Below are positions 10,390 through 47,282 of a stretch of 64,000 nt of DNA, piece after piece. Positions within the stretch are counted from its first letter, which is position 1, and each line of letters opens with the position of its first letter. Where the stretch lies: the IMG/VR virus record IMGVR_UViG_3300012363_000001, positions 1-64,000 of that record, one strand, 5' to 3'. The DNA comes from a virus. A program made the translations under genes and the position numbers. Under the pieces are notes generated by a model. It ran no database searches. It was given only the letters and a program-made list of their open reading frames with translations, and was not told the DNA's origin.

Positions 10390-10565
10390 TGGAAGAATCC
10401 AAGAGTAGTGAAATGTTTGCAGATGATAGTGGTGACACCATCGTCTGCGAGGAGTGCGGAGAAACCTGTCCGCTGTTCACGGCCTACTGTACTGGTACCA
10501 TTAACCGCCCAGTGATATGGCACTGCGGCCCCATTTGCCCCAAGCAACACAGAAGAGACCAATGA
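10386..10565 (+). CDS. Small Cys-rich zinc-binding protein
   Basis: 59 aa, ATGA overlap. Acidic start, then CEECGETC and later HCGPICPKQH, a ribbon-like metal site. Function unknown. Confidence 0.6.
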   Translation: MMEESKSSEMFADDSGDTIVCEECGETCPLFTAYCTGTINRPVIWHCGPICPKQHRRDQ

Positions 10566-11002
10566 TGTTCGGCCCCATCTGGAAGCTCAAACGTTGGTGG
10601 TGGTACCAGGTGGAGCCCACGCTCTCGGATTTGCGATGGGCAATCAAAGACCGCCTATTCCCGCCCCGGCCCCCGACCTCCGAGGAGAAGGCAAGGTACG
10701 AGGAACAGGCAAAGAAATTGCAACCACTTCTCGACGCCTTGAAAACGTCCGGCTATCTTTTGAAAAGTAGCGCTGAGTGCGAGGGCTCGGCACTTCAAAT
10801 CGAAGACCTCTGTCCAATCATGGAATGTGTCACCTTCCGTTGGGGCGTAGGCAAGTATCTTGGCGAAACCAAGGCTAGTTACCGCGCCCGAGAGGATTTC
10901 TGGCACCGGCACGAATTCTTAAAAATCCCGACCGAAGAAAAACCACCCCGACCGCAGTTCCAATGGTGGATGCGAATCATCCACAGAATCTACGGAGGAT
11001 AG
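10562..11002 (+). CDS. Hypothetical Trp-rich protein
   Basis: 146 aa from ATG 10562, overlapping the previous stop. The N-terminus is basic and Trp-rich (KLKRWWWYQ), suggesting membrane-surface or nucleic-acid contact. No family recognised. Confidence 0.65.
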   Translation: MMFGPIWKLKRWWWYQVEPTLSDLRWAIKDRLFPPRPPTSEEKARYEEQAKKLQPLLDALKTSGYLLKSSAECEGSALQIEDLCPIMECVTFRWGVGKYLGETKASYRAREDFWHRHEFLKIPTEEKPPRPQFQWWMRIIHRIYGG

Positions 11003-22017: not shown

Positions 22018-25000
22018 TTAAGGCGCTTTCACCGGACTCTGAACGGCAGGTATTGCTCCGACAGCCCGGGCACGACTTGTAATTCGTGGTGCATTGGCCG
22101 GAGGCGGTGCGTTAAGGTGACTCAAATCCTCAGGTGGCTGAGCCAGGTGACGGTCTTTCATCCGGCCGAAGATTCCTGGTTTATGAGCCGGCATCTCACC
22201 ATGCTTCAGGATTTGCCGACTGCTCTGACTTACTTGACCGGCTGGCCTCATGCCGGTTTGAGCGCTGGGTGCAGCGCCCCCGCCAGCCCCAGCTGCCAGG
22301 GCCTTTTGGACCGGGGGCTTTCTTTGAAGAGCCGGAGGAGTAGTATATGTTTGCTTCGGGGGAAGTTTGAATTCAGAAGCAGGACGAGTCGGTCTCTGTG
22401 CCGGAGCCTCACGTGGAGGAAGAGTTGCCGGACGACCTGTTGGGTCGAGACCGAAATCACCCTTCTGTACAGCACCTGGAGCCGGAGCCGGTTGGGTCGC
22501 AGTCGGTTGCATCGGGCCAACGCCTTGCCTGAAGGGCTTGTTCGGCCGAGAAAAGAGACGAGGACTACTGACGCCTGAACTACCGGACATACCACCGATG
22601 AACTTCTTCATTTCCGCTTCGGACTTCATGGCCATCGGGCCACCGATATTCACGCCACCGGTGTTGACTCTAAGCCCGGGCATGCGCATTCCCCCGGTCT
22701 TTATTCCACCGCCACCAGCCGGCATTCCCCCAGCCTTTGGGGCCGCAGGTTTACTGGCCGAAATGTTAGTAGCTGGATTTTTACCACTCGGTGGCTTAGC
22801 CATCGGGGGTTCGGCTTTTTGTGCCCCGCGGGCATTGATAACGCCTGCCGCGGTGTAATCTCTGGGCATGTTTGGCTTTTCGGCCTTGGGTTCAGTCTTG
22901 CCGACATTCTTCCGGTTGTCGATAATTTTCCCGCCACTGCCAGTTGCGGTATCGCGCTGGTAGAGCCTGGGCTCCGCGTCTTTGGGCAGGACACCTTCTT
23001 TGTCGACCTCGTTGTGCTTGTCGTGGCCCTTCCAACCTTGGAGTTCAGTTTTCTTGGCTTCCTTTGCCCGCTTTGCTTTATCCTCAGCAATAGTTCGTGC
23101 GGCTTGTTCTTTAGACGGGCCGCCCATGACACCTACCATCTCCTTGGGCATCTTGCCGGTCTGCCGGGCGATTCGAAGCTTATGCTCTTCTGGGCTGCTC
23201 GGTCCTTTTTCAGCCATGGCCAGGAATGGCCCCGTGGCTCCGCCTGGTTCCAGTGATGCCGCGGTGCTGGTGATTGGGCTCGCCGGTCCGGTGATGTTTT
23301 TCTTCATCGGCTCGCCAACAGACTTTTCGCTAGCCGCCAGAGTCCCAGAACCGGTCTCAGCCCCCATGGACTCATGAGGACTCGGGCCGGCTTCTGCTTT
23401 CTGAGTATGTGTCCCGGAAAGAATCTCATGAAACTCACGCGGGGTGATGGAATGTTGGCTCTGCAGACGCTTAGGTCCAGCGCCGGTGGCGTAGTGAGTT
23501 CTCACGGAATGAGCAATGCTTTTCAGATACGCTTTCCTGTCCCGGGGTTCTTTCTCAGCCAGAGAAATAGCCTCAGCCTGCATCTGGCCGGTATGAGTAT
23601 CGGTCTGAGCAGTCTTCTTGGTGCGGACACGAATCTCAGGGCTCTCGCCCGAGGACTCGCTGACACTGACACTGACTTCATCTTTGTGATACTCCTCTGA
23701 AGAGTATTCAGCCTTTTTCTTGTCTTTGTTGTACGAAGACCAAGCCACCGCCCAGGGATTGTCGATACCGGGCTTTTGCTTCAGTTTCCGGACTTGTTCC
23801 TCGCGACCCGGGGGAGTCACTTTCTCCAGCTCGGACTTTCTGCCGGCTGCTTCAAGAGCGCCAGGGGGAATATCATCAATGCCGGAACTGACAGCGGTCT
23901 GACCCGGGGTTCTACTCTGCGGGGGGACAGCCTTCTTGAGTTCTCGCTGTCGGAGGTCGACGAGAGACTGTTCCATCTTTGCGATGCGTTCTTGAGTGAA
24001 GCCGAGAAGAATATTTCTCACTTCCTCGGGACTAAAGGTTTTCTCATCGGCCACAGCAGTCTCCTCGTTACTCTTTAAGATTGTGTTCTGCTCGCTTCGA
24101 AGCAGCGGCTTCTTCAGCGTGTCTTCCATGCCCTTGAGCCCAAGACGGACAGCGTGGTCGCGGACCATGTCCAACGCCGTAGCCAAGGGAATCTTGTGGC
24201 TGTGGGGTGTAAAGCCTTCGCCCCCGGGTTCGGTGAATTGTCCCGTCACGGCCCGATGCGCGGCATCGTGCATGACCGTATTCAGCTCCCGGTGGAAGTC
24301 CTCGTCACTCATCGGGACCCCGAGTTGGTTACTGAGTTCTCGCTGCTTGTGAGCCGCCAACCATTCCCAGTGCACGGCCCGGAGAGCTTCCCGGAGGTTT
24401 CGGTGGGTACCGAGCTTGCCGATGCGTCGACCCTCGCCGTAGATTTTATTTAATTCGGGATAGGTCAGAGCGTGACTGAGTTCGTGAATCTGTCGCCAAC
24501 CGCGGTTGTACTCTTCGTCTTTGAAGTCGCCACCACTACCCGGAGTCGGGTCATAAACCATCAGGTGCCCGGTGTTATAATTCTTCCTGGCAAGGTCCGG
24601 TTTCCCGTACCGGCCGCCGGCATAGTAGGTCTGGTAGCCGTGGCGCTTGACTAGGTCTTCAATCTGCGGGAGCTTGCCTTCATATCGGTAGTGTCGGAGA
24701 TTGGTCTGCTGAGCCGGAGTCACCTGACCGTATGGGGCCGCGAACTGATGGTAGGTCGCGCCGCCCGGGGCCATGGCCTGCTCGTTCTCGAAATTCTTCG
24801 GAGCCACAGGAGGTTCTGGTTGGCTCATGTGCGGATGCACTGGGTCGGCTTTACCTAGCGGGTCATTGACCTCCAGGTGATGGTCGGTGTGACCGTCATG
24901 CCAGCTGTATGCGTGCGGGTGAGGCTGAAACTTCGCATGAGCAAAATGCTTTCTGAGGATAGCAACTGCTTCTTCAATGGTGTACTCATCCTTGCGGACA

Positions 25001-25458
25001 CCGGTCTCGACCAGGGGATGAAGTCGGTTCCAATCAAAGTTGATGCGGGCGTACCCTTGGCCGGGGACGTGCGTATAATAGTCATCCGGGTGGTCTTGGA
25101 ACATCTCCACCGGATTCTGAACGTCTTGCGGGTGATACTTGCCCTCGTGGGGACCGTTCGTGTAAATGAGTCGGTGCTGTCCGTCTTGGCTGTGGACTAC
25201 AGACTCCTGGCCGAAAAGCTTGCCCAGGTACCGGAGGAAGTCGGGTTGGATGCCGTGGATGATATACGCGCGCTCAGGTTCCTGGTAGCGACCGTGAGTT
25301 TCCTGGAATTGAAGTCCATGGCGCTTTAATATTTTGCCGAGCGCTTCGTGACCGTGTGGCGCCAGACTCGGGTATAGAGGCTTTTCCGCGGACATGATTC
25401 CGAAGGTTCCGCCGCCGAGCAAAGGCTGAGTCTGAGGCTGGGGCGCAATCGAGTCCAT
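22018..25458 (-). CDS. Large virion-associated polyvalent-type protein with zinc-peptidase motif
   Basis: 1146 aa. An N-terminal segment around residues 25-110 contains LGKLFGQESVVHS, a pattern seen in DUF3293-like domains of phage proteins. Around residue 325 is HELSHAL, an HExxH zinc-peptidase core with nearby Glu and His. From ~460 on the chain is disordered and rich in Lys, Glu, Pro and Gly (GGMPAGGGGIKTGGMRMPG). Genes of this type beside tail genes are thought to encode proteins packaged in the virion and injected. It starts 7 bases after a CAATCT element with no ribosome site. Confidence 0.7.
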   Translation of the reverse strand: MDSIAPQPQTQPLLGGGTFGIMSAEKPLYPSLAPHGHEALGKILKRHGLQFQETHGRYQEPERAYIIHGIQPDFLRYLGKLFGQESVVHSQDGQHRLIYTNGPHEGKYHPQDVQNPVEMFQDHPDDYYTHVPGQGYARINFDWNRLHPLVETGVRKDEYTIEEAVAILRKHFAHAKFQPHPHAYSWHDGHTDHHLEVNDPLGKADPVHPHMSQPEPPVAPKNFENEQAMAPGGATYHQFAAPYGQVTPAQQTNLRHYRYEGKLPQIEDLVKRHGYQTYYAGGRYGKPDLARKNYNTGHLMVYDPTPGSGGDFKDEEYNRGWRQIHELSHALTYPELNKIYGEGRRIGKLGTHRNLREALRAVHWEWLAAHKQRELSNQLGVPMSDEDFHRELNTVMHDAAHRAVTGQFTEPGGEGFTPHSHKIPLATALDMVRDHAVRLGLKGMEDTLKKPLLRSEQNTILKSNEETAVADEKTFSPEEVRNILLGFTQERIAKMEQSLVDLRQRELKKAVPPQSRTPGQTAVSSGIDDIPPGALEAAGRKSELEKVTPPGREEQVRKLKQKPGIDNPWAVAWSSYNKDKKKAEYSSEEYHKDEVSVSVSESSGESPEIRVRTKKTAQTDTHTGQMQAEAISLAEKEPRDRKAYLKSIAHSVRTHYATGAGPKRLQSQHSITPREFHEILSGTHTQKAEAGPSPHESMGAETGSGTLAASEKSVGEPMKKNITGPASPITSTAASLEPGGATGPFLAMAEKGPSSPEEHKLRIARQTGKMPKEMVGVMGGPSKEQAARTIAEDKAKRAKEAKKTELQGWKGHDKHNEVDKEGVLPKDAEPRLYQRDTATGSGGKIIDNRKNVGKTEPKAEKPNMPRDYTAAGVINARGAQKAEPPMAKPPSGKNPATNISASKPAAPKAGGMPAGGGGIKTGGMRMPGLRVNTGGVNIGGPMAMKSEAEMKKFIGGMSGSSGVSSPRLFSRPNKPFRQGVGPMQPTATQPAPAPGAVQKGDFGLDPTGRPATLPPREAPAQRPTRPASEFKLPPKQTYTTPPALQRKPPVQKALAAGAGGGAAPSAQTGMRPAGQVSQSSRQILKHGEMPAHKPGIFGRMKDRHLAQPPEDLSHLNAPPPANAPRITSRARAVGAIPAVQSPVKAP

Positions 25459-28552: not shown

Positions 28553-29962
28553 TTACTCTCCTGATGGATTGCGGCTGGAAGTCGGGGCACCGCCGGGGTC
28601 CATGACAAGACCGGCACGAACGCTGCGCCATTTCTCTTTGCCGGTCTTCGGGTCTTGGACCTTGAGCTTACCGGCATCCTGGCTACCACCAGGCGAGGAA
28701 TCTTTCTGACTACCAACAGGGAGGTTGAGTTCGTGTCGAGTCGGAGCCTTGGGCATCGGAAGTGCAGCTTTCTCGATGTCCTCTTTATCCAGGACCCGGC
28801 TACCTTCCGGCGGTGGATGAGCCGGGTCTAATTCTTCCTTCTGAGTCGGCTGGGCCGCTTGCTGCGGTTGTTCCTTGACAAGTTCCCGGGTCATGGTGAT
28901 GAGCACCTTGACCAGTCCGGAGATGGAATTGTAGAGGTCCGGGTCCTTCTCGCGGATTTCGTTCAGGTTCGGACTCTTAGCCTGGATGTCCTTGAGAATC
29001 TTCACCACCGTAGCTTTAACTTCTGCACGGTCATCGCCGGCATCGTCCTGAACAGCCTGGCTGTCCTGGTCCTGCTGTCCATCAGCCAGAGCCTTCAACT
29101 GGCCAAGGAATCCTTCACCGGCATCGGTCTGCTCCGGTACCGCAGCTTGCTGGGCCTCGGCTGCCTGCTGGGCGACTTGAGCCTCTTCGTGCTCGCCGGA
29201 CATCGTTGGCTTCGCCGGTGCCGCGGGCCTACTGGGGATGTGGCGACCGGGTTCATCGGCCTTGAACAGGTAGCCAAACCGGGGCGGAGCCGGCCGGACC
29301 AGGGGTTGTCCATCGGTGCACAATTCACGGGCGTCGAGAAAATGTTTTTTCCCGTCTTCGGACTTGGCAAGGACAATGTGGTCAGAACCCCACTGACCCT
29401 GGACGTTACTTAGCGGGCCGAGGATTTCATATTTTTGGCCGTCACGAACCGCAGCCATCGGGAATTCCATCTTGGCTAGCTTCTGGATGTCCTCACGGTA
29501 CTGGCGCCTGAACTCAGACTTCTGTTCCGGGGTCAGGTCCTGCCAAGTCTCGGCCTTCGAAAGTTCTGCGGATTCCTCTTCGGTATGGCTGAAGTCTTCC
29601 AGGCCTTCTTCGAAGATAATAATTCTGTCGCCACCCAACTTCCAGGCAAACTTTCGGGCTCTGTCAGCCTCAAAGGGGTTGGTACCGACACCGACACTGA
29701 CTTTCTGGCCGAGGTCGTCGCCGTACTGTTGATGAATGTTCGGAAGCTCCCCAAGATGTGCAGCCTCTATATCGGCCAGGCCCCGACCGGCGCTCAGAAA
29801 AATAATCGAGCCGCCGCGGGCGGCAGACCAGCTAGACCAAATCAGGTTGGAGTGCTCAGCACGCTGATTTAGGTGTCGGATGGCTTCAGCATCGTTCGCC
29901 ATGATGGTAGACTGAAGCTCATCGTGGAATGTATCCGACTCCCAGGAAATGTAGACGTGCAT
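28553..29962 (-). CDS. GGDEF-like nucleotidyl-cyclase domain protein with disordered tail
   Basis: 469 aa. Residues 1-118 follow the GGDEF/cyclase fold order: strand MHVYISWESDTF with an Asp, ARGGSIIFLSAGRG where GGDEF would lie, KVSVGVGTNP, then ADRARKFAWKLGGDRIIIF resembling the last helix and strand. The signature is GGSII, so the second acidic residue is missing and activity is doubtful or altered. Residues ~240-469 are Gln/Pro/Lys-rich and disordered, as in injected virion proteins. ATG 29962 has AGGTGG before it; an earlier in-frame ATG at 30016 overlaps the promoter. Confidence 0.6.
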   Translation of the reverse strand: MHVYISWESDTFHDELQSTIMANDAEAIRHLNQRAEHSNLIWSSWSAARGGSIIFLSAGRGLADIEAAHLGELPNIHQQYGDDLGQKVSVGVGTNPFEADRARKFAWKLGGDRIIIFEEGLEDFSHTEEESAELSKAETWQDLTPEQKSEFRRQYREDIQKLAKMEFPMAAVRDGQKYEILGPLSNVQGQWGSDHIVLAKSEDGKKHFLDARELCTDGQPLVRPAPPRFGYLFKADEPGRHIPSRPAAPAKPTMSGEHEEAQVAQQAAEAQQAAVPEQTDAGEGFLGQLKALADGQQDQDSQAVQDDAGDDRAEVKATVVKILKDIQAKSPNLNEIREKDPDLYNSISGLVKVLITMTRELVKEQPQQAAQPTQKEELDPAHPPPEGSRVLDKEDIEKAALPMPKAPTRHELNLPVGSQKDSSPGGSQDAGKLKVQDPKTGKEKWRSVRAGLVMDPGGAPTSSRNPSGE

Positions 29963-29978
29963 TCGGTTGGCCACCTGT

Positions 29979-29989
29979 GGTATTATACT
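29979..29989. promoter_or_regulatory. Divergent -10 region
   Basis: GTATTATAC reads as TGG-TATTAT rightward and TATAAT leftward, between the genes at 28553-29962 (-) and 30032-30301 (+). A CAATCT copy lies at 29995-30000 on the minus strand. Confidence 0.5.
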
Positions 29990-30031
29990 CTCAAAGATTG
30001 TCGCCAGCCCCGACAATGAAAGGAAACGTCA

Positions 30032-34894: not shown

Positions 34895-35731
34895 TTACTT
34901 GGGACCGAATCCACCTTGGGCAGGCCCGTACATCTGCCGGGCGCTGGTACTGTCTTTGGCCTCATGGTCGTGTTGTTCATTCAAGAACACGAATTCACGG
35001 TGGACCAGGGCTGACTGTGGCATACGAATTATTTTTGATTCCCCGGTCTGCTGGTCGATGTTCATTGCCACCCGGACGTCGTGGAGAATCGGGCCCACGT
35101 AGAAGAACGGCCGGTAGGTGTAGCGGATGGAGCAGACCAGGCCCCGACCGGTCTCAGGGTCAACTCCAGGCCGGTTCTGGCTTTTCCAGACGACCTGGCC
35201 CTGGATGATATCAAAGTCACAGCCGGAAAGATATTCACGACCTTTGGCGTCCACGAGCCGAATCACCTCCACAACCGGGAAGTTCAACCGTTCCTGGCCG
35301 CTCTGGTGCGCAAGGAACAGCTGCCAGTAGATGACCACGACATTGTCCTCGTGGATAAAGAATCTGTCAAAAGGAGCGATATTGACCAGCTTGTTCTCCT
35401 GGTCATCGTAGGTCCGCGGGGCCGTCATGTTGAACGTGGCGTGGTCCATGATACCGACTTCGTCTTGCTGGCTGGTCTTCTGATTCGAGGTCAGCAGGCA
35501 GGTGATGGTGCCAACGTTCTTGTACAGGTACCCGTTGCTACAGCTGACGTGGTCGTGATGAGGTCGGCGGTCATCGTCGAGGTCTGTCATCCCGACCGGA
35601 CACCGCATGGCGATGAAATGGTCGAGCTTTACGCCCTGCGACCGTATCTGAGTGTCGAAAGCATCAGCATCAAACAGAAGTGCCTCAGACGGAATCTCCG
35701 TTTGAATCTGAAACGGTCTTTGTCTGGCCAC
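34895..35731 (-). CDS. Phage structural protein
   Basis: 278 aa from GTG 35731 (frame is open further upstream but overlaps 35740-36057). Contains SNGYLYKNVGTITCLLTSN and a LNFPVVEVIRLVDAKGREYL strand pair. Beta-rich baseplate-type composition; component unknown. Confidence 0.65.
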   Translation of the reverse strand: MARQRPFQIQTEIPSEALLFDADAFDTQIRSQGVKLDHFIAMRCPVGMTDLDDDRRPHHDHVSCSNGYLYKNVGTITCLLTSNQKTSQQDEVGIMDHATFNMTAPRTYDDQENKLVNIAPFDRFFIHEDNVVVIYWQLFLAHQSGQERLNFPVVEVIRLVDAKGREYLSGCDFDIIQGQVVWKSQNRPGVDPETGRGLVCSIRYTYRPFFYVGPILHDVRVAMNIDQQTGESKIIRMPQSALVHREFVFLNEQHDHEAKDSTSARQMYGPAQGGFGPK

Positions 35732-35739
35732 GGCGGGAC

Positions 35740-36057
35740 CTACTTGTTGAGCTGATACAGCTCGTTGCAGCGGTCTGTCAGTTCCTGATACTTGGGAATC
35801 ATTTCGGTAAAATGCGCTGGGTCGACCCAATCAGACTTCGACAACTCGGTCCAGACCACTTCGGGTTCACGGAGCTTGCTGACGTAACGGCAAACAGCCG
35901 CGTGAGGTCCGGTCCCAATCCACTCCGGGGCACCGTTCTTCATGATGACATTCATGTAGAAACCGCCCTTGGTGCGAAAAAGTAGTACAGGTTTCCCATG
36001 CAGGGTCCCGACTTTCTTCGGTTTCCCGTCAAGCTGGCGTTCGTCGATTTCAATCAT
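35740..36057 (-). CDS. Hypothetical protein
   Basis: 105 aa. Beta-rich first half (VGTLHGKPVLLFRTKGGFYM), Trp-rich middle, helical end. GGGGGAG lies before the ATG, and a CAATCT element lies 45 bases upstream. Confidence 0.65.
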   Translation of the reverse strand: MIEIDERQLDGKPKKVGTLHGKPVLLFRTKGGFYMNVIMKNGAPEWIGTGPHAAVCRYVSKLREPEVVWTELSKSDWVDPAHFTEMIPKYQELTDRCNELYQLNK

Positions 36058-36555: not shown

Positions 36556-36684
36556 ATGTACACGTTGAAAAAAACAGCCAGAGGTCAGTGGTTCGTGTTG
36601 AAGGGTATTTACTACGTCGGGTTCTTCGACCAAGAACACGAGGCCCAGGCGTTCCTGAACAAGTTGCAGGCTGGTCTGTCATGA
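36556..36684 (+). CDS. Small hypothetical protein (42 aa)
   Basis: GAGG precedes ATG 36556. Basic N-terminus, aromatic strand (YYVGFFD) and a C-terminal helix. ATGA overlap with the next gene. Confidence 0.55.
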   Translation: MYTLKKTARGQWFVLKGIYYVGFFDQEHEAQAFLNKLQAGLS

Positions 36685-36983
36685 CTCCAACCGGCGCCGC
36701 ACTCAAGGAATTGGATTCCATCCGAGACCTTCTCATCGAGGCTCAAATCCTCTATCGATTCGGAGGCTCGCGGGCGTATGAATCAGCTGTGACCGCGGAA
36801 GATACCGCCTGGGTAAAACTCCGGGACCTGGTCCTAGCTCATGCCCCCAAGCCACTGACTCCGGTTGACACCCGCATCATACCGGAGTATGCTCGCAGAG
36901 CTGATGAAGAAGTTTTCCGCCAGGGACAAGTCAAGACCGAAGGCGCCGAGGCCGTGCGAGATTACCTGAGGATGAACACATGA
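36681..36983 (+). CDS. Hypothetical helical protein
   Basis: 100 aa, predicted helical throughout; no motif. Overlaps both neighbours by 4 bases. Confidence 0.65.
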   Translation: MTPTGAALKELDSIRDLLIEAQILYRFGGSRAYESAVTAEDTAWVKLRDLVLAHAPKPLTPVDTRIIPEYARRADEEVFRQGQVKTEGAEAVRDYLRMNT

Positions 36984-37294
36984 GCGAGACACGAGAAAAA
37001 TACGAAGAGTCGGTACTGAAGCTCCGCGACTTGGTTATCGATACCTTGGGCTGGGCCGCGTTCGAAGGTAGCCCCGAAGATGTGACCTTTCTTGCCGAGG
37101 CCCGGAATCGAATCATGGCCATGGTAGCCCGCTGCGATTATACCCTCAGTGAGGTCGAACGGGGGCTTGTCGACGATGGTCGGGTCATCGACGCTATCCG
37201 GATGTTGCGCAGCCGCACCGGAAAAGACCTCAAGGACGCCAAGGCCATGACTGACCGATACCGCATCGCCAAAGGGGAGAAGCCCATCACATGA
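36980..37294 (+). CDS. Ribosomal L7/L12 C-terminal-like protein
   Basis: 104 aa. The C-terminal third (DDGRVIDAIRMLRSRTGKDL then KDAKAMTDRY) follows the L7/L12 C-terminal domain pattern (KI-x-VIK-x-VR-x-x-TGL-x-LKEAK). In the ribosome that domain recruits translation factors. The N-terminal half is helical and not L12-like, so this may be a phage factor that mimics the stalk. Confidence 0.65.
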   Translation: MSETREKYEESVLKLRDLVIDTLGWAAFEGSPEDVTFLAEARNRIMAMVARCDYTLSEVERGLVDDGRVIDAIRMLRSRTGKDLKDAKAMTDRYRIAKGEKPIT

Positions 37295-37635
37295 AATTCA
37301 CAGTCCGAGTCCTAAACCTTGATGAAGTGCCCGACAGCCAGGGCGAAACCTTCGACCCCGCGGGAGTGGAATTGGAAGATGGCCCAGTATGGGTCACGCT
37401 GGGTTTCGACCCCCAGAAGAAAATCGGTTCCGCGACCCTGAAGAAAGTCGAAGGCGGTGTCGACGCTGAAATCGATATCGATGGAGACCTCCCCGAGGGA
37501 ACGTGGACCCCGGCCATTGGTGGACGCACCTTTGGCAAGACCGGCAATGTTCTTACCAAGGTTCTCATCAACAGCATTGGTCTGAGCCCATACCAAAACT
37601 GTGACCACCGCATCCAGCCATTGAGGAAAGCATGA
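37291..37635 (+). CDS. Hypothetical beta-rich protein
   Basis: 114 aa, ATGA overlap. Acidic, strand-rich (DGPVWVTLGFDPQKKIGSA); no family recognised. Confidence 0.65.
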   Translation: MKFTVRVLNLDEVPDSQGETFDPAGVELEDGPVWVTLGFDPQKKIGSATLKKVEGGVDAEIDIDGDLPEGTWTPAIGGRTFGKTGNVLTKVLINSIGLSPYQNCDHRIQPLRKA

Positions 37636-38075
37636 CCGATGCTTCGAAAACCACCTACGCGACCAAGAATCCGTTCAGCGTCAGCAACGATGACGTCTAC
37701 GAGGCCCTTCATCGGATGGGCGGTTGCGGGACTGCAGAAGATGTTATCGTCTACTTCTATGGCAGCGACCTAGTCAGCGTCACCGAGGGCAAGCGCCGAG
37801 CCCAGCCCATCTACCGTGCCCTGAGTGAATTAGCCAAGGCTGGTCGGCTGGACGACAGCGACCAAGTCCTCAATGCCGAGACCAACGCCAAGAACACGGC
37901 ATATCGGATTCCCAATCGCCCCATCAAAGCAAAGGTCGGGAACAGCTACAAGGCCAGGTACGAAGCCTCCTTGGAAGAGAATAAAAAACTCCGGGAACGC
38001 ATCGAATTCCTGGTTACCAAGAACGAGAATCTGGTGGACAAGTTGGCAAGCTTCTTGCTGAAGCCTGGACACTAA
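37632..38075 (+). CDS. Winged-helix-like protein with coiled coil
   Basis: 147 aa. Residues ~20-95 read like a winged helix (VYEALHRMGGCGTAEDVI, then RALSELAKAGRL); the last 40 form a coiled coil. Likely a dimeric DNA-binding regulator. Confidence 0.6.
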   Translation: MTDASKTTYATKNPFSVSNDDVYEALHRMGGCGTAEDVIVYFYGSDLVSVTEGKRRAQPIYRALSELAKAGRLDDSDQVLNAETNAKNTAYRIPNRPIKAKVGNSYKARYEASLEENKKLRERIEFLVTKNENLVDKLASFLLKPGH

Positions 38076-38076
38076 A

Positions 38077-38517
38077 ATGGCCACGCTGACAGCCAAAGAC
38101 ATCAAGACCGGGTACTATTACACCAACAAGAGGAACGAGGTTCTCTATATTGTCTCGTTGACTCTTCTGCCCGGAAATCCTGGCTTGACCAACGCCCAAG
38201 TTGAACTCCAATACCGCATCCTAAAAAACAATACCTGGTCGGAAATCAAAAAGTACAAGTACGATGTCGACGCGGTCTTTGCTATCACTGAGTTCCAAGG
38301 AACCCAGAATGTATTGCCGCCGCTCCCCGGCGGCGCGGGCCGACTCTACAGCAGTGCTCCAGCAGCATCATCCACCCTACCGTCGACTTCAGCCCCTGCC
38401 AAAAAAGTCATCCCGGCAAACGCCAAATCCAAGGTTTGCACGGTCTGCGGTGGTCCAACCAAAATATACGTTGGCCTCTTGGGCGGCGACGCCAACTTCT
38501 GTCCGAAATGTGAATGA
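38077..38517 (+). CDS. Protein with C-terminal zinc ribbon
   Basis: 146 aa: a beta-rich domain (1-75), a Pro/Ser/Ala linker (~85-120) and a CTVCGG...FCPKC zinc ribbon at the end. Function unknown. Confidence 0.65.
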   Translation: MATLTAKDIKTGYYYTNKRNEVLYIVSLTLLPGNPGLTNAQVELQYRILKNNTWSEIKKYKYDVDAVFAITEFQGTQNVLPPLPGGAGRLYSSAPAASSTLPSTSAPAKKVIPANAKSKVCTVCGGPTKIYVGLLGGDANFCPKCE

Positions 38518-38520
38518 ACC

Positions 38521-39171
38521 ATGATTCTGCTCTGGATAATTCTTAGTCTCGTGGGGGTGGCGGCCTTCCTGACCATCCTCATTCTCCAGCTTGGAATAGA
38601 GCGGGTGCTGATGGCCCTGCTCCCGTACTTCGAAATCACCAAAGTCGTGAACGGGGAGAAGGTTGTCTACCTGCGGCGCTTCTTCCTCTGGCGCAACCGC
38701 CACGCTTTGGCAGTCAGTCCGGAAAAGAGATTCCACTTTAATACCAGTTCCGGCCACAGTATCTACCTGCATCACATTCTCCGCAGCGACGACGACCCGG
38801 ACCCGCACGACCATCCGTTCGATTTCACCAGCATCATCCTCCGCGGCGGCTACTTTGACCAAGAATGGGGCTTCGTGCCCCCAAGCGTTGACGGCGGTCC
38901 AGGTAATCGGTACCAGAAGGAAGGCACCCCGGTCTTTCCGGGAGAGATTGTCCGCAGACCAGCTAGCCACATTCATCGGGTGATTCTGTTCTCGAAGGAC
39001 TACGGTTGGGACGCCAACGGTTCCTTTGTGTCTGGTCCACCAACCCCGGCTTGGACCTTGGTTATTACCGGACCGCATTTCCGTCACTGGGGTTTCATTA
39101 AAGAAGACCGCTGGGTCTACTGGCGTGAGTACCTAGGCCTGGGTCCGGACGAAGAATACAAGGTGGATTGA
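38521..39171 (+). CDS. Membrane-anchored cupin-like protein
   Basis: 216 aa. A strong membrane helix (ILLWIILSLVGVAAFLTILI region, residues 2-23) precedes a cupin-type metal site: HHILRSDDDPDPHDHPFDF and a later SHIHRV, with IILRGGY. Phage cupins of the HDHP type exist without known function; the membrane anchor is unusual. Confidence 0.65.
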   Translation: MILLWIILSLVGVAAFLTILILQLGIERVLMALLPYFEITKVVNGEKVVYLRRFFLWRNRHALAVSPEKRFHFNTSSGHSIYLHHILRSDDDPDPHDHPFDFTSIILRGGYFDQEWGFVPPSVDGGPGNRYQKEGTPVFPGEIVRRPASHIHRVILFSKDYGWDANGSFVSGPPTPAWTLVITGPHFRHWGFIKEDRWVYWREYLGLGPDEEYKVD

Positions 39172-39175
39172 CTCT

Positions 39176-39397
39176 ATGACCGTCGGAGAATTGAAAGAGC
39201 GGATTGCCCGAATCCCAGAGACCTTGAATGACAAAAAGGTCTACATCGTCGACATCGTTCACGACGACATCCGCGTTGACGTTTTCGTGCACAGCACGCC
39301 GGCTCGCCTGGGTGGAGAAATCATAAGCCCTAGTTGGGTAGATATCCTCGGCGCGCACAGCGGAGAAGATGTCCCGGGAAGGAAGATTGCATCATGA
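39176..39397 (+). CDS. Hypothetical protein
   Basis: 73 aa; starts MTVGELKERI, a common opening for small phage beta-strand proteins of unknown role. Confidence 0.6.
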   Translation: MTVGELKERIARIPETLNDKKVYIVDIVHDDIRVDVFVHSTPARLGGEIISPSWVDILGAHSGEDVPGRKIAS

Positions 39398-39801
39398 GTC
39401 CTATTTTCATCAAGGCCTTCAAAGCCAAAGTGAAGTGTCCGCAGTGTTCCGCAGACAAGCTGAACGGCTATAGCATCTGCAGCAAGCACTTGCTCAAGGC
39501 AAGATTCCGCTGGCGCCGGTGGTCCAAGAGCCGCTATCACCAAGGTCTCTGCCACAGCTGTGACCAAAGACATATCCCCGGTCAACAGCGGTGCATGCCT
39601 CATACTATCAAAAATCGGAAATATTGTTGGGAGTGGAGTTACAACAAGTACCACGCCCGCAAGCGCGACGGTCTCTGCGTCATGTGCCCGATAGGTGTCG
39701 TCTCGCCAACGGTTGATAGAACCGTGTGGTGCTATTCGCATCGAGAGCAGGCCCGGGAAAAGAACCGCAAGTATCACCGAGCCCATAGTAGGGCAAAATG
39801 A
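39394..39801 (+). CDS. Cys/His-rich triple zinc-knuckle protein
   Basis: 135 aa from ATG 39394. Three similar units: CPQC...CSKH, CHSC...CMPH and CVMC...CYSH, separated by basic aromatic stretches. Each could hold one zinc. Very basic overall, so RNA or DNA binding is likely. Confidence 0.65.
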   Translation: MSPIFIKAFKAKVKCPQCSADKLNGYSICSKHLLKARFRWRRWSKSRYHQGLCHSCDQRHIPGQQRCMPHTIKNRKYCWEWSYNKYHARKRDGLCVMCPIGVVSPTVDRTVWCYSHREQAREKNRKYHRAHSRAK

Positions 39802-39823
39802 AACAACAAGGTTCGGAGCGCAA

Positions 39824-40498
39824 ATGAGCGAGTATCACAAGATAGAAACGCTTTACGAACGGGATGAAAAGACGTTCAAGGTTCGTGTGGGCGAGCTGAA
39901 GAACCGAACCTATTCGTTGCTAAAAACGTGGCATTGGACCGAGAAGATAGACGGTACCAATATCCGTTGCATCTGGAAAGATGGAAAGCTGAGCTTCGGC
40001 GGCAAGACTGACAACGCACAGATACACGCAGACCTCGTAAAGTGGCTCTACGAGAATGTGACGCCAGAAAAAGTCCGAGTTGCATTTCCTCCAGACGAAT
40101 GGGACCGCGAAGGTGGAGGCTTTGAGTACACCGGACTCAAGGATATCGACGTAGTCATTTACGGCGAAGGATACGGAGCAGGAATTCAAAAAGGTGGCGG
40201 GTACTCAACTACCAAGAAGCTGATTGTCTTTGACGTGCTCGTGGACGGCAAGTGGTGGCTCAACTACGAAAACGTTTGCGATGTTGCGGCAAAGCTGGGT
40301 CTGGACGTCGTGCCATCGTTTGGTGAGATGACGCTGGAAGATGCGACCGTGATGGTCTGGAACGGCTTCAAGTCGAAGTGCGCCGTCGATTCAAAGCAAA
40401 TGGCAGAGGGGTTGGTGGGGCGTCCATTAGAGACTCTCTTCGATAAGAAGGGGCATCGTCTCATAACCAAACTCAAGACGAAAGACTTTCCCAAGTGA
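39824..40498 (+). CDS. ATP-dependent RNA ligase (Rnl2-like)
   Basis: 224 aa. Nucleotidyltransferase motif I is TEKIDGTNIR with the lysine at residue 41; motif III-like IDVVIYGEGYG and C-terminal EGLVGRP and ITKLKTKDF (motifs IV and V) follow. It is short (core domain only). Such ligases reseal nicked RNA such as tRNA broken by host anticodon nucleases, and pair logically with RtcB. ATG 39824 chosen over a longer frame; the longer one reads through the previous gene. Confidence 0.85.
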   Translation: MSEYHKIETLYERDEKTFKVRVGELKNRTYSLLKTWHWTEKIDGTNIRCIWKDGKLSFGGKTDNAQIHADLVKWLYENVTPEKVRVAFPPDEWDREGGGFEYTGLKDIDVVIYGEGYGAGIQKGGGYSTTKKLIVFDVLVDGKWWLNYENVCDVAAKLGLDVVPSFGEMTLEDATVMVWNGFKSKCAVDSKQMAEGLVGRPLETLFDKKGHRLITKLKTKDFPK

Positions 40499-40875
40499 GC
40501 ACAAAATACGATATCCGTTGCCTGACCTGCGACCTGGAAGATGGCTCCTTCCGGTACATCAACAATCACGACTCCTCTTACTACGATGTCCCGGGGCTTC
40601 AGGACCTGATTAAGAACGCCGATACCCTAGCTGCGCTTGCCAAGATAGACGATGACGGCCGGGAAATCCTCGAAATAGACCGCAACAAGCTCCAATTCTT
40701 CGCCAATCACCAGGGTCACAAGCTGGCCGTCTACGATGAGTATGGTCATGCTGTCGGTTCCTGCCTGCAGACCAAGAACTGCGAGTACTGCGGTCAGTGG
40801 AACGCTCTGGTCTGCAGCCTGGACGAAAATCACAACGGCAAATGCCAGTTCGTAAAGCCGCACCCACGACCATGA
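40495..40875 (+). CDS. Protein with C-terminal zinc motif
   Basis: 126 aa from GTG 40495 (GTGA overlap). CLTC near the start and CEYCGQWNALVC near the end suggest metal binding. Function unknown. Confidence 0.6.
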   Translation: MSTKYDIRCLTCDLEDGSFRYINNHDSSYYDVPGLQDLIKNADTLAALAKIDDDGREILEIDRNKLQFFANHQGHKLAVYDEYGHAVGSCLQTKNCEYCGQWNALVCSLDENHNGKCQFVKPHPRP

Positions 40876-41153
40876 GTCGGACTTACTTTAACGTCTTCCA
40901 CGAAGGTCAGTTGGTTGGCTTCGGAGTCTACGCGCACGTCTCGGATACCTGGCATCCGGAGATTTTCAAGGACCGAGCGGAGTTTCGAGACAACACCCGG
41001 AACGAACCCTGGGATTGCAAGTGCAACCCGAAGCCGGTAACCAAGGTTCAGATAATCGAAGCAACCAAGTTTGACCCGTACGAGGGCGAAATGCCGGCTT
41101 GCCTCAAGTGCCGTGTATTCACTGGCGACTTGGGTCCAGACGACGGCTACTAG
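40872..41153 (+). CDS. Hypothetical protein
   Basis: 93 aa with CKC and CLKC; ATGA overlap; converges by 4 bases with the giant polyvalent gene. Confidence 0.6.
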   Translation: MSRTYFNVFHEGQLVGFGVYAHVSDTWHPEIFKDRAEFRDNTRNEPWDCKCNPKPVTKVQIIEATKFDPYEGEMPACLKCRVFTGDLGPDDGY

Positions 41154-44100
41154 CGAACCAAGTTCTCCACCGGTTCGGCTTGTCCGGTCAATTCCTCTGC
41201 CGTGGCCTGGTGAGTCGGGTCACCGTACATCCCGGACCAAATCTGATTGATGGCTTCATCAACCGGCATTGAGAGAGCCAAGGTCTTGACCAACTGCAGG
41301 CGCCCAACTTCAGCATCGGGGTTCAGGCCATAGCGCAGCAGTGTTGATTCCAGTTCATGCTCGTTGATACCCTGCAACCAAACCCTCAGGAGGTCTTCGC
41401 TGAAGTGATTGGTCCGGGGCATGACCTTGAAACGCTCTTCTGGATTCAGGAGGTTGAAATTCTTACGTGAGTCCGAATTCCAAATCCGAAGGTAATAGGG
41501 TGTGAAGCTACTCTCGTCGTGGACGGGGTCGAAGCTCTGTCCGGCAAACGCGGAGCCGTGGTCAATGAGCATCAACCGGCTACCCATTTCCTCGTTAGAA
41601 ATCATCAGATTCTGGCTGTGGCGGTCCGGATTCCCGAGCACCCAGTCGAGAACAGCCCACTTGTGCAGACTCCCGTTCCGGAGGTACTTGGTCATGGCCA
41701 TGCGACCCAGGTTCGGGGTCTTACTCCGGGTCTTGTCAAGATTTTTCCAGCCGATGCCCAGGAATTTGATGGCTGCGTATTCTTTGATTACCTTCTGGCC
41801 GTCCTTTTTGTCTTCGACGATAATCAGGTCGGCACTGGGAAGATACTGTTCCAGGTCCCAATTCCGGGCCACGTGGGCGAATGCTGCCTCGCGCTGGGAC
41901 TGGCTGGCGCGTTCTTCCTTGACCCCCTTTGCCGGACTCGGCTTACCGGACCCGGGCTTCAGAAGATAGGTATCGCCACCATGTGGAGCCCAAACCATAA
42001 GGGCGCCTTTACTGTGCTTGCCCTTGAGTTCAAGTTGCTTCACGTTGCCGGCACGGAGAGCTGCTTCAACCTCACGGGCCGTTTTCTCGCCTTCAGGGAC
42101 CGCGGCGACCACGTGCGGGTCGTAGTCCCAAATCTTTTCCTTCTTCCCGAGGTCACGAATCTCCAGCAAACCCTTCAGAGCCTTCAGGTTGGCTTCGTTG
42201 ATTTCCAAGCCATAGGCTGCCAGAGCAGCGGCCTCGATATCGTTGTCGTGAACCCAGAGATAACGACGGAATTCTTCCTCGTTGATTTCTTTGCCTCCGG
42301 ATAGGAATTTTGCTGCGGCCATGACGGCGTCAGCATGTTCGCTGAATCCCATCAGGTCCTGGGCAAGGTCTTCCTTCTCTTCGGGCTTGCCACGCGAAGG
42401 GTCTCGAAGCAGGACCTCGCTGCGCTTGGTCAGGTCGGCACCGTGATGCTTGGCCCAGTCGCGAAGCTCTTCGGTCTTGTTGAGCTTGGGGTCGGCCCAG
42501 ATGTGAGGCCCGATATCTTTGGGCTTCAGAGTCTGGGCGTACCGTTGCATCTGCTGCCAGGCCCGACGGACGTCTTGTACCAACTCCCGACCTTCTTGCT
42601 CATTCAGGCCATGATGCCGATGAACCCCCGCCCGCATCACCGGGTCCTGAAGGTAGTTATGGACGTAGGCCAGGTTTTCCTCGGGCGCTTGCTCCGGGGT
42701 ATACGCATAGCGCTTTGTGGCCATGATTTTATCCAGGGCCTGGCGATGCTTTTCATCCAAGGAACCAATGGTCCGGTCAACTACTTCCCGCATTCCCTTT
42801 TGGCCAATGTTCTGAGAAAGCTGTCCGTAGACGCTGTGTTGAGATTCGTGACCGACATTACCGTGTAAATTCAAATTCGTCTCAGGGTTGACAAAACCAC
42901 CCATGGTCCGCCAATGGCTAGGAGTCGGCGCATCGGGCATCGTGTTGTAAAGCATCGAACCACCGGTTCTGGCAGCCCGAAGATAAGCTTTGACCTGAGC
43001 AGCTGCAGGAGCCTTCTTCCCGGTAAGCCTTGTTGCTTGCAGCAGATATCGATTTTCGCGATGCTTTCTATCTCCCAAAATCATGGGCTGCGTGGGAACT
43101 TGCTTGAGACCAAAATTGGGATAGAGAAGGAAGCCGATGTTCTTCCGCAGCACTTCTTCTCGGAGTCCGGCCGGGGTCTGGGGATGCTCGACAAGCTTCT
43201 GTCGCTGTTCCTCGGTCAGAGCCGGATGCCGGCTGGCCAAGGCCTGAGTCGCTGGGTCCCAGAGCAGAACGTCCAGGTGATGAGCCTGCAGGTCCGGTCG
43301 ACGAGCCAGAGTCTCACGGACCATCGGGTCGTCGTGATACAAGGACTCGGTCAGAAGTTCATCGGTCATCGCCGGGTGAGCAGCAGCCAGGGCTCGAATC
43401 TCTGGGTCTTCATCATGAAGAGCGTGGCGCAAGTGGAACGGCTTTATGCTCTTGTGCTTGAGGGCCAGGCGTCGTTCGAGACGGTCATCATGGTCCAGAA
43501 GGGTCATCAGATGGTCCTGCTCAGACTTCGTAAGCTCGGTCTTTTCCATCAGGTGGCTGATAACCGCTTGACCGAGCTTGGCAGCCATCATCAGGCCGTA
43601 CTTCTGCACATAGGGCTCGGTCTTGATTTGATAGTCGTCAGCGTGCTGAGCAGCACCCAGACCCCAACGCCAACCATAGGCGGCTTTCAGAGGGTCACCG
43701 AGTACTCTCTTGAGGTAGCGCCAATGTCCGCTGGCCACAATGTTGTAAAATTGTGGGTCCTTCATCTTCTCGATGACTTTCTCCGGAGAGTCGAGACCCG
43801 GGAAAAGCTTCTGCAACCGCGGACTGTGCTTATAGGTTTCGTGAGCGGTGACCGGTTTCAGGCCCAGGGCTCCATAGGCCGTATGATACGGACCCCCAGA
43901 ATGTGGCTCATGGTTCGTGTTTCGGCCGAAACCAGATTCCAGGTGAGCGATAGGTTTCAATTCCCGGTCCAGGCCATGCGGAGTCCATTTCTGCTCTACT
44001 TGCTGGACCTGCTGTGCCTGGGGTTGGATTTCTGCACCTGGGACTTGCGCCTGGACCGGAGATGTTGCTAGAGTAGCGGCTGTCAACAAACTCGGCCAGA

Positions 44101-46018
44101 GTGCCTTCTCAAGAACCAATGAATCACGCTCCTGAAAAGAGGGTAGTATACCATCATCCTCGTCCGAGTGTCCAGGTTCGGCATTTTCTTTTTTATTAAA
44201 ATCTAGTTCATCCTTACCAAGCCAAAAATTGGCACCCGCCTGGGTCCGCAGAGAAGATGGCCTAATTGGCTTGTTTGCTGCTTCAGTTGCAAGCTGATAC
44301 ATTCGCCTGGCAATACCCTGTCGTTGATGACGCTCATGAACCCAAACCTGGCTGGCAACAAGATGCTCGTCTGGCGTATGTTCGAAATCTACGGCACCAA
44401 CTTTGTCGTCGCCCGACCGCTTATATTCATCAGGATGAGTCACTGAGACGGTCGTGGTATGGACTTGCCCGGTTCGGTCCTTCAGGTGATGAATTCCGAA
44501 TTGGTAGCCCCTGGCCTCCAGGCCGATATCGGTCGGAGCCACTTCCTGTTTCAGAGCGTATTGATACGGGGCAAAACGCTCATCGAAGGCTTCTGCGGCA
44601 TAATTGTATTGGGACTTTGGCTCAATTCCTAGGCGCTGAAATTCGGCAGCAGTAGGCTTTGATTCTGATGGCCCCATTTTCTCTTCGGGTTCGTACCCCA
44701 TTCCGTGTCTTTCGCTCAGCTTCTGATGGACTCTAGACGCCAGGGTACTATGAGCATCTCCGCTGACGTGCGAGGCACCTAATTTATTTTTCCCATGGGC
44801 CAGGAGAGCCTCGTAGAGAGCCAGGCCGAGGCCCTTGCCCCGATGCTCGTCTCTCAGCCGAGAATGACCGATGTCAATTACACCCGGGTCTACCGGGTCT
44901 TCGTGACCGACGAGGGCTTGAATACCGCCTGCGTATTGGTCACCGTGGAACAACTTAGCTTCTAGCCTGTGTCCAGGGAATCTTCCTTTCAAGTCAGGGT
45001 GCGAGACTCGCGGGGCGTGGTAAACCCTGAGCCGATAGCCGGCTTGTCGATGCTCTGGCTTAAGGACATGGCTATAGTCATGGACGGCGCCCTGGAGCAA
45101 ACCTTGGTCCAATTTCCATGGATTCGAACCACCAGTCAACGAGCGCCATTGCTGGACTTCTTCTGGTTGAAATTTAACTCGTGGCCCGACAGGAATGTCC
45201 TTCAAGGCCTTCTTCACTGGGTCCAGAATTTCGTACGCATTCAGGTGCGTGACACCCCGGGCCTGGGCGGCTGCCAGACGATGGTTGCCGTCGATGACGT
45301 TAAAGCCCTTCCCCGAACGTCGGACGACGATGGGCGGGAGTTGTTCGCCGGCAGCGGCCATGCGACGGTAGAGTCGGAGCCGGTCCTGGTTCACGGGCAT
45401 GTTCATGCCCTGGAGTTGTTCAACGGGGACCTTTATCGGCTGGAGGTCCTGGCCTCGCTGGCTGCCAAAAACTTCCTTCAGGTGTTGTTCGAAGGCATCG
45501 TTCCAGTGCCTACGCTCCGGATTATCAGCCGTCGGGATGGTGATGCCTTCCCGGGACCGCCAATTCTTTTGGGCCTTGCTGAGGCTGGCCTCGATGCCGA
45601 GCCTGACCAGGGTGCAATTAGGCCGGTCTCGGAGGTCGTACTTCTCCGGGATGCCGTCGCTGGCGTCTACCCATTCCCAGTGAGAGCACTCTTCGTCGGG
45701 GTCATGCTTGCCAGTAGGCTCTCCATCAACATCGGCTCGGTAACAGTGCACGACGATGTCATGTCCGCCCTTATGGACAGTATCTTGACCGAGATATTCC
45801 AAGGTCTTGGGCTTGAGGCCAGCTTCCTCGTAAAGTTCCCGGACCGCGGTCCGGCGATGGTCTTCTTCGTTCTCTTCCTTGAGCGTAGCATGGCCGCCCG
45901 GCAGAACCCATTTGCCGGTATCGTCGCGCTTGCCGAGCAGGAGCAAGCCATCGGGGTTGAAGCAGGCCACCGAGGCTACGACGAGGGCCTTCTCGCGTTG
46001 AGACTTGCCCAGTTTCAT
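41150..46018 (-). CDS. Giant polyvalent protein (Nudix, ParB-like, two GNATs, transglycosylase-like, repeats, peptidase, kinase-like)
   Basis: 1622 aa. In order: Nudix hydrolase (1-~140; Nudix box with RELYEEAGL near 60); ParB/sulfiredoxin-like segment (VIDGNHRLAAA near 240); acetyltransferase 1 (RGKGLGLALYEALL near 395); acetyltransferase 2 (RQGIARRMYQLA near 565); lytic-transglycosylase-like domain (AHLESGFGRNT near 690); HEAT/LRV-like repeats (~835-955); HExxH site GHESQHSVYG near 1055; HipA/PI4K-like kinase core (GNPDRHSQNLM near 1465, LIDHGSAF near 1485). Such chains are known as polyvalent proteins of phages, thought to be injected and to counter defences. It lies just downstream of connector-like structural genes on the same strand. 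Confidence 0.85.
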   Translation of the reverse strand: MKLGKSQREKALVVASVACFNPDGLLLLGKRDDTGKWVLPGGHATLKEENEEDHRRTAVRELYEEAGLKPKTLEYLGQDTVHKGGHDIVVHCYRADVDGEPTGKHDPDEECSHWEWVDASDGIPEKYDLRDRPNCTLVRLGIEASLSKAQKNWRSREGITIPTADNPERRHWNDAFEQHLKEVFGSQRGQDLQPIKVPVEQLQGMNMPVNQDRLRLYRRMAAAGEQLPPIVVRRSGKGFNVIDGNHRLAAAQARGVTHLNAYEILDPVKKALKDIPVGPRVKFQPEEVQQWRSLTGGSNPWKLDQGLLQGAVHDYSHVLKPEHRQAGYRLRVYHAPRVSHPDLKGRFPGHRLEAKLFHGDQYAGGIQALVGHEDPVDPGVIDIGHSRLRDEHRGKGLGLALYEALLAHGKNKLGASHVSGDAHSTLASRVHQKLSERHGMGYEPEEKMGPSESKPTAAEFQRLGIEPKSQYNYAAEAFDERFAPYQYALKQEVAPTDIGLEARGYQFGIHHLKDRTGQVHTTTVSVTHPDEYKRSGDDKVGAVDFEHTPDEHLVASQVWVHERHQRQGIARRMYQLATEAANKPIRPSSLRTQAGANFWLGKDELDFNKKENAEPGHSDEDDGILPSFQERDSLVLEKALWPSLLTAATLATSPVQAQVPGAEIQPQAQQVQQVEQKWTPHGLDRELKPIAHLESGFGRNTNHEPHSGGPYHTAYGALGLKPVTAHETYKHSPRLQKLFPGLDSPEKVIEKMKDPQFYNIVASGHWRYLKRVLGDPLKAAYGWRWGLGAAQHADDYQIKTEPYVQKYGLMMAAKLGQAVISHLMEKTELTKSEQDHLMTLLDHDDRLERRLALKHKSIKPFHLRHALHDEDPEIRALAAAHPAMTDELLTESLYHDDPMVRETLARRPDLQAHHLDVLLWDPATQALASRHPALTEEQRQKLVEHPQTPAGLREEVLRKNIGFLLYPNFGLKQVPTQPMILGDRKHRENRYLLQATRLTGKKAPAAAQVKAYLRAARTGGSMLYNTMPDAPTPSHWRTMGGFVNPETNLNLHGNVGHESQHSVYGQLSQNIGQKGMREVVDRTIGSLDEKHRQALDKIMATKRYAYTPEQAPEENLAYVHNYLQDPVMRAGVHRHHGLNEQEGRELVQDVRRAWQQMQRYAQTLKPKDIGPHIWADPKLNKTEELRDWAKHHGADLTKRSEVLLRDPSRGKPEEKEDLAQDLMGFSEHADAVMAAAKFLSGGKEINEEEFRRYLWVHDNDIEAAALAAYGLEINEANLKALKGLLEIRDLGKKEKIWDYDPHVVAAVPEGEKTAREVEAALRAGNVKQLELKGKHSKGALMVWAPHGGDTYLLKPGSGKPSPAKGVKEERASQSQREAAFAHVARNWDLEQYLPSADLIIVEDKKDGQKVIKEYAAIKFLGIGWKNLDKTRSKTPNLGRMAMTKYLRNGSLHKWAVLDWVLGNPDRHSQNLMISNEEMGSRLMLIDHGSAFAGQSFDPVHDESSFTPYYLRIWNSDSRKNFNLLNPEERFKVMPRTNHFSEDLLRVWLQGINEHELESTLLRYGLNPDAEVGRLQLVKTLALSMPVDEAINQIWSGMYGDPTHQATAEELTGQAEPVENLVR

Positions 46019-46871: not shown

Positions 46872-47282
46872 TTAGATTGTGGTCGTTGACTGAACCCTGA
46901 AGGCATTCTTCAGAACGCCCTGCGTGATGATACCGCCTTGGTTCAGACTGAGTCGAAGGTTGGCGGTCCCGGTACAGAGGTCCGTGGAAAGAACGTTGAA
47001 AGACCAAATACTGGGGTCCAGGGGAAACGGCTGGGTCGCGACCCGGCCTGCAATCTGTTTCAGCTGGTCGAGGGTCTGAAGGGTAACGGTCAGTGTCGAG
47101 CCAACCGCGGGCATAAACCGCCGGCCGGGGGGCACGAAGCCATCCTCTGGGCGGTCCAGCTGGGCGTCAATTAGCTGAAAAAAGACGGTTACCGTGTCCC
47201 CGGAGGTCCATTCGAAGGTATTGGCGTATTCGAATACATTGGCGCTGGCAACATTCTTTAGGGGTCGGGCACTGAGCAGCAT
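46872..47282 (-). CDS. Small structural protein
   Basis: 136 aa, beta-rich (SGDTVTVFFQLID, GSTLTVTLQTLD), probably a virion protein. A GAGGAG site is partly paired in a short hairpin (CTCCTGTAGAGGAG) just before the ATG. Confidence 0.65.
   Translation of the reverse strand: MLLSARPLKNVASANVFEYANTFEWTSGDTVTVFFQLIDAQLDRPEDGFVPPGRRFMPAVGSTLTVTLQTLDQLKQIAGRVATQPFPLDPSIWSFNVLSTDLCTGTANLRLSLNQGGIITQGVLKNAFRVQSTTTI
46874..46879 (-). promoter_or_regulatory. CAATCT element before 46021-46863
   Basis: CCACAATCTAAGGTGACCA on the minus strand, 10 bases before ATG 46863; overlaps the stop codon of the upstream gene and contains the ribosome site. Confidence 0.3.

Follow-up and report, generated by a model that had tools for sequence, protein, structure and literature searches.

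The window analysed here, the whole 64,000-nucleotide stretch (bases 1-64000 of the 164,871-bp virus record G000), encodes a 1622-aa protein in which seven or more modules, catalytic or binding, share one chain. With a probability of about 0.7, we read it as a virion-cargo polyvalent effector of an Mx1-related phage, which would travel inside the head and be ejected together with the DNA, its modules acting separately on the host. Established at the level of sequence are the ORF, the module identities except that of the glycosidase, the genomic slot, the permutation of modules, and the fusions of the same module families to the head protease and MuF. An earlier note on this DNA had called the product a phage polyvalent protein, and the enzyme types named there, the glycosidase excepted, were present, in support of that reading.

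The uninterrupted frame described in that note, which named no strand, was recovered at exactly the same coordinates and lies on the minus strand (Table 1); the gene is single-copy in the virus record. Frame 0 contained no stop over the whole length, whereas the two other frames contained 5-12 stops per 600 nt. Twenty shuffles of the window gave stop-to-stop frames of 285 codons at most. An assembly error joining separate genes had been named beforehand as what could undo the reading, and a frameshift could produce the same artefact. The content of the ORF is indeed found in two adjacent genes, split at a module border, in Mx1 and in the related contigs L005, L015, L016, L024 and L027. However, the independent contigs L004 and L014 carry a comparable long fusion in a single ORF, with L004 aligning over ~980 aa, and the frame here is open throughout while its two alternatives are closed. 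An artefact was given next to no probability and was excluded, to the extent that sequence allows, because the same kind of fusion occurs in two independent contigs.

The modules follow in the order Nudix, ParB-like, GNAT1, GNAT2, Ala-rich stretch, lysozyme/transglycosylase-like, LRV/HEAT-like, HExxH, and helical plus kinase. Iyer et al. (2017) placed the number of unrelated globular catalytic or binding domains at 2-15 per polyvalent polypeptide. Here the Nudix, ParB, two GNAT and kinase modules were found by profile, with Pfam cut-offs exceeded by the Nudix, GNAT and kinase modules, and the peptidase and repeats by conservation or structure model, which supports the domain list proposed earlier apart from the transglycosylase. 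The two structure models, one of the middle and one of the C-terminal part, were moderately confident overall (pLDDT values 68 and 62), with low-confidence linkers.

Table 1. Coordinates of the polyvalent gene, its modules, neighbouring genes and carriers of the ~32-aa head-protein motif. Positions are those of the window unless a contig is named.
Feature	Position	Strand	Basis or remark
Polyvalent gene, whole ORF	41150..46018	-	ATG at 46018
Nudix module (aa 12-135), Nudix box with 4-aa loop insertion	45614..45985	-	Pfam PF00293, module HMM
ParB/Srx-like module (aa 145-269), DGNHR motif	45212..45586	-	PHROG 1033, Foldseek
GNAT1 module (aa 305-492), RGKGLG	44543..45106	-	Pfam, Mx1 homology, module HMM
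GNAT2 module (aa 500-615), QRQGIA	44174..44521	-	Pfam Acetyltransf_1/_7 at 537-582
Ala-rich hydrophobic, signal-peptide-like segment (aa 634-662)	44033..44119	-	precedes SLT-like module
Lysozyme/transglycosylase-like (SLT-like) module (aa 671-812), LES-x-FG	43583..44008	-	6-member alignment, fold match
LRV/HEAT-like helical repeats (aa 834-958)	43145..43519	-	structure model, Pfam LRV in relative
Predicted zinc metallopeptidase module (aa 1028-1200)	42419..42937	-	HESQH 1057-1061 + EE 1113-1114
C-terminal helical + PI4K/HipA-type kinase module (aa 1220-1594)	41237..42361	-	Pfam PF00454, Foldseek
Head-tail connector-like gene, 280 aa	46021..46863	-	PHROG head-tail adaptor E 0.011; PHROG 772 E 2e-27
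Conserved 136-aa gene upstream of connector	46872..47282	-	order kept in relatives
Two conserved genes, Mx1 WNM70335/70336 homologs	34895..36054	-	follow polyvalent/kinase genes in relatives
~32-aa motif carrier	L008:8344-9747	-	
~32-aa motif carrier	L008:13206-17054	-	
~32-aa motif carriers in Mx1 L002, L035, L036, L040			

The Nudix module matched Pfam PF00293 at E 8.9e-17 over aa 13-125 and was 53% identical to Mx1 A 926-1032. Tested against the consensus Gx5Ex7REUxEExGU, its Nudix box kept the R-E-x-x-E-E core intact and had 4 extra residues in the first loop; the first spacer exceeds 5 residues here and is canonical in L004, L014, L005A, L015A and L016A. The ParB-like module matched PHROG 1033 (E 6.6e-6), retained DGNHR and was 37% identical to Mx1 A 1255-1443, and a Foldseek search with the middle model returned Myxococcus xanthus ParB 7bnk (probability 1.00, E 6.5e-3). 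Both GNAT modules carry [RQ]xxGx[GA]; Pfam recognized GNAT at E 7.9e-11, the middle model matched a tandem GNAT (Foldseek, E 5e-4), and GNAT2 was homologous to L014 298-418. The Nudix box, the ParB-like segment and the two GNAT-type segments that had been proposed from the letters were thus borne out. The same note had suggested that the protein may act on several host defences or on NAD/ADP-ribose signals. ART-PolyVal occurs in three relatives, and because Mx1 and L027 join it with Nudix in the same protein, ADP-ribose chemistry is plausible for the polyvalent family. No ART-PolyVal domain was found in the genome of this phage, so a NAD/ADP-ribose role is one option among NDP-X substrates for this Nudix.

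The motif LES-x-FG, its Glu included, was invariant in all six aligned copies of the SLT-like module, the motif order was lysozyme-like, and a goose-lysozyme-like BFVD fold match was obtained with the whole model (E 2.6e-3). The module had no match to Pfam, PHROG or PDB sequence profiles, and its hhalign comparison with Slt70, MltC and T7 gp16 was non-significant, with a score equal to the best of 20 column shuffles. The transglycosylase-like domain claimed earlier therefore stands on motif order and one fold match, and failed in all sequence profiles; a glycosidase identity is plausible and is the weakest of the module names. All 10 fused copies that were compared have a hydrophobic stretch like the Ala-rich segment N-terminal of the module, with Kyte-Doolittle maxima of 1.2-2.1 over 17 residues. 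A stand-alone lysozyme-like module of 157 aa with a hydrophobic N-terminus was also seen on an 85-kb contig (L028:5941-6414); no recognisable lysis cassette was found around it by eye.

The helical repeats were modelled with a pLDDT of 83-95 over aa ~836-935. They fell below the Pfam threshold here, and Pfam LRV was matched at E 0.0087 in the relative L005B; the confident model supports the HEAT/LRV-like assignment although Pfam was sub-threshold. In the following module the H, E and H of the HExxH site and the downstream EE pair were invariant in five aligned sequences with a lowest identity of 18%. This supports both the site noted earlier and a predicted metallopeptidase; the module had no profile match and no PDB sequence match, and the fold was of low confidence there in the model.

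The terminal module matched Pfam PF00454 (PI3/PI4-kinase) over the cut-off at E 1.6e-8, and the C-terminal model matched PI4KII-alpha (Foldseek E 1.6e-4, probability 1.00, TM-score 0.53-0.56 on the target). The ATP Lys (LLKP, 1352), the D-x(4)-N motif (GNPDRHSQN, 1462) and the metal-binding Asp (IDHG, 1485) were all present, in agreement with the HipA/PI4K-like kinase core read from the letters. The module was present in 11 loci. No relatives were found among 84,980 bacterial and archaeal genomes at the sensitivity used, and therefore no host or prophage source was found for it. Extra PI3/PI4-type kinases beside the terminal one were seen in gene A of two loci: two in L016 (L016:3497-7531), and one together with a DUF3626 domain in L015 (L015:5174-7732).

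The polyvalent gene sits in the late head/tail cluster, between head and tail-sheath genes, and the same holds in relatives. The connector-like gene lies directly upstream, its stop 2 bases before the polyvalent start codon. Mx1, L004, L014, L005, L015, L016, L024, L027, L029, L030 and L031 all have homologs of the connector and the 136-aa gene ahead of the polyvalent gene, and the WNM70335/70336-type pair follows it in nine of those loci (the contigs of L029 and L031 end earlier). L017 had neither the upstream homologs nor the two follower genes. In the window, a plus-strand gene block at about 36588-41153 parts the polyvalent gene from the WNM70335/70336 homologs, whereas in Mx1, L004 and L005 these tail genes follow directly without such a block. 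An RNA-ligase-like ORF (39695-40498) was recognized by eye within the block. Elsewhere on the minus strand, a 487-aa tail-region protein (28553-30016) gave a sub-threshold match to minimal CRISPR polymerase (mCpol, E 2e-4), as did its Mx1 homolog. A 1146-aa protein (22018-25458, minus strand) shares ~145 aa of homology with an Mx1 protein that gave a SAM-lyase-like match below threshold; it is possibly the product of another module-bearing virion gene.

Mx1 was the only named phage matching. Counting it, about a dozen related contigs either fill this slot with a polyvalent gene of one or two ORFs or share the terminal kinase. The whole-protein scan and the two-sequence kinase scan of viral contigs gave no matches, but four-sequence kinase and SLT alignments used as queries did recover relatives; module-wise IMG/VR scans added L004, L014, L005, L015, L016, L017, L024, L027, L029, L030, L031, L006 and L028. 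L030 and L031 look like one locus in two contigs and were counted once. Eleven loci were complete enough for comparison (this phage, Mx1, L004, L014, L005, L015, L016, L017, L024, L027 and L030). The kinase was last in all 11 and Nudix was first in 8, the exceptions being Mx1, L017 and L030. The Nudix-to-kinase frame is a single ORF in three (this phage, L004 and L014); L017 also has a single ORF, without Nudix, and the remaining complete loci have two adjacent genes cut at module borders. The comparison of domain order that had been suggested earlier thus showed a constant kinase end and a variable middle. The order with Nudix first and kinase last had been thought unusual, and this did not hold, because it is the commonest frame in the phage group.

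Variation lay in the middle, where modules change order, are exchanged for others or fall into separate neighbouring genes; some relatives lack whole modules. The polyvalent genes of L004 and L014 are ~80% identical in DNA; nevertheless a ~97-aa block (76% DNA identity) stands on opposite sides of the SLT-like module in the two, and where one has GNAT1 the other has GNAT2. A block moved at ~80% identity indicates a recent in-frame rearrangement rather than ancient divergence. Shuffling as such is known, since domain mosaicism of polyvalent proteins has been reported for Helicobacter elements (PMC5512222).

A recurrent L-x-K-[STAG]-E linker was also seen at module borders in this protein (W), Mx1, L004, L005, L014, L024 and L027. 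In these related rows, L-x-K-[STAG]-[EDQ] occurred 23 times in inter-module gaps against 2.9 expected from gap shuffles, and its enrichment relative to the modules was weak (Fisher p 0.049). It may be a processing site or a recombination hinge; the processing hypothesis was not relied on, because of the weak enrichment against modules, the post hoc choice of the motif and the relatedness of the rows.

The adjoining connector and tail genes, together with the lysozyme-like module, the peptidase-like module and the helical repeats, would suit a mainly structural or assembly protein, associated with the neck or tail in the manner of a tail lysozyme or tape-measure enzyme, whose modules are mostly degenerate or morphogenetic. 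This was considered quite improbable: the predicted catalytic residues of the Nudix, GNAT, ParB, peptidase and kinase modules are conserved, and size and module content are too variable for a fixed structural part.

The case for virion cargo draws on the recurrence of the module families in head proteins. In this phage the head-maturation protease is encoded as part of a ~1280-aa polyprotein (gene at about 77,206-81,054 of G000, minus strand). Near its C-terminus the head-protease polyprotein carries a kinase of the same superfamily in seven of eight genomes and a GGDEF cyclase-like domain in the eighth. Inside the polyprotein, G005 has the same ParB module (i-E 5e-30) and L006 the same SLT-like module. 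Each insert has the protease domain on one side and a ~32-aa motif, KA[LM]EAGNYN..PStL..GsALQ.ED (weak in L006), on the other; the major capsid protein has this motif at its N-terminus, the polyprotein in its interior. In G003, a MuF homolog is fused with an ART-PolyVal domain in a 1442-aa protein (L038:8184-12512, minus strand). This recurrence argues for head packaging and ejection; head cargo is the simplest reading of the module families, because their carriers act in or around the prohead. Injection with the DNA, as the earlier note had suggested, is likewise favoured by the context of late head/tail cluster, connector neighbour and fusions of related modules to the head protease and MuF.

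The ~32-aa motif is possibly a processing or targeting site. Its ALE resembles the A-x-E sites of the prohead protease in the giant phage SPN3US, where cleavage of the ejection protein gp47 at one such site has been inferred (PMC5694885), but several of the copies in the present phages depart from A-x-E. The motif is absent from the polyvalent protein itself. A 161-aa plus-strand protein encoded outside the structural cluster (10517-11002) also has the capsid N-terminal motif in weak form (GSALQIEDLCPIM; HMM E 0.004).

As virion cargo, the protein would be produced late, along with head and tail proteins, from the fixed slot beside the connector, loaded into the head and then ejected with the DNA, and its modules would act separately, whether during entry or once in the cell. 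The lysozyme-like module would act on the cell wall and ParB on DNA, the GNATs and kinase would modify host proteins, Nudix would hydrolyse NDP-X signals or caps, and the metallopeptidase would process the protein itself or a host target. The slot would serve as a cassette holder in which N-terminal and middle modules are exchanged and reordered in frame from phage to phage, the kinase block keeping the last position. More tentatively, enzyme cassettes may circulate in frame among capsid-associated genes, the injected arsenal being changed by exchange and the cargo loaded by prohead assembly. Their sites would be the connector-side slot, the head-protease polyprotein (between the protease and the capsid-like processing motif), the kinase tail and, once, MuF with ART.

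A polyvalent protein could instead stay unpackaged, being made late in the cell to modify host proteins, block superinfection or aid assembly and lysis from within. The existence of the lysozyme-like module as a separate protein in another phage would agree with this, and no packaging signal was found in the polyvalent protein; but relatives of its modules are built into the head-maturation protease and MuF, which end up inside proheads or heads, and the gene keeps its place between connector and tail genes, so that we regard an unpackaged protein as unlikely. The injected-toolkit role of polyvalent proteins has been predicted from sequence, with few direct tests. This family is a tractable case: Mx1 can be grown on a standard laboratory host (M. 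xanthus DK1050), the slot is fixed, and the permutations reveal exchangeable modules against a constant kinase. The modules recurring in head protease and MuF give a concrete, testable ground for packaging, and the PI4K/HipA-like kinase is pointed to as the constant effector of the phage group.

Among known systems, the closest is Mx1 (OR576727.2), an isolate with a contractile tail and a genome of 169.6 kb (PMC10720576). Its WNM70333.1 ('NUDIX hydrolase') and WNM70334.1 ('kinase') occupy the same slot after the connector and share the Nudix, ParB, GNAT, SLT-like and terminal kinase modules at 35-53% identity. They differ in being two genes with the order YunG-GNAT1-ART-Nudix-SLT-ParB, then kinase, in having ART-PolyVal and a YunG-like module, and in lacking the LRV repeats and the HExxH module. 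In Tunturiibacter phage Tunturi_5, the large polyvalent gene gp321 (XOB77764.1; L007:9784-13872) lies one small ORF downstream of a head-tail connector that had no detectable relation to the one here. Its modules differ (SprT-like peptidase, 2H/Acb1-like phosphoesterase, ART-PolyVal repeats and GNAT), and it is annotated MutT/NUDIX, yet no Nudix match was found in the domain search. The head-packaged Nudix/ART effectors of myoviruses (PMC9503650) and T4 Alt have Nudix or ART fused to or beside head proteins and are proposed to be injected, fusion of Nudix to MuF, portal or a capsid-processing peptidase being taken as packaging evidence (PMC9503650). Those proteins typically carry one or few effectors, whereas at least seven permuted modules are joined here.

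Phage polyvalent proteins typically lie near late virion genes and are predicted to be injected (PMC5512222), and the gene described here has the connector as neighbour between head and tail-sheath genes. The proteins of Iyer et al. (2017) likewise combine many unrelated domains in one large protein near late genes, with peptidase, GNAT, kinase, ParB and lysozyme domains among their usual parts. Of their signature domains, predicted ParB and HExxH peptidase-like modules are found in this protein and ART-PolyVal in its homologs in Mx1 and L027. Their kinase is of the Ser/Thr/Tyr type without a C-lobe, whereas a PI4K/HipA-type kinase is fixed at the C-terminus here, and 'HipA' does not occur in the text of PMC5512222. 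Beyond Iyer et al., the predicted proteins of this phage group demonstrate the sharing of modules with the head protease. The protein thus represents a new family within a known kind, the phage polyvalent proteins.
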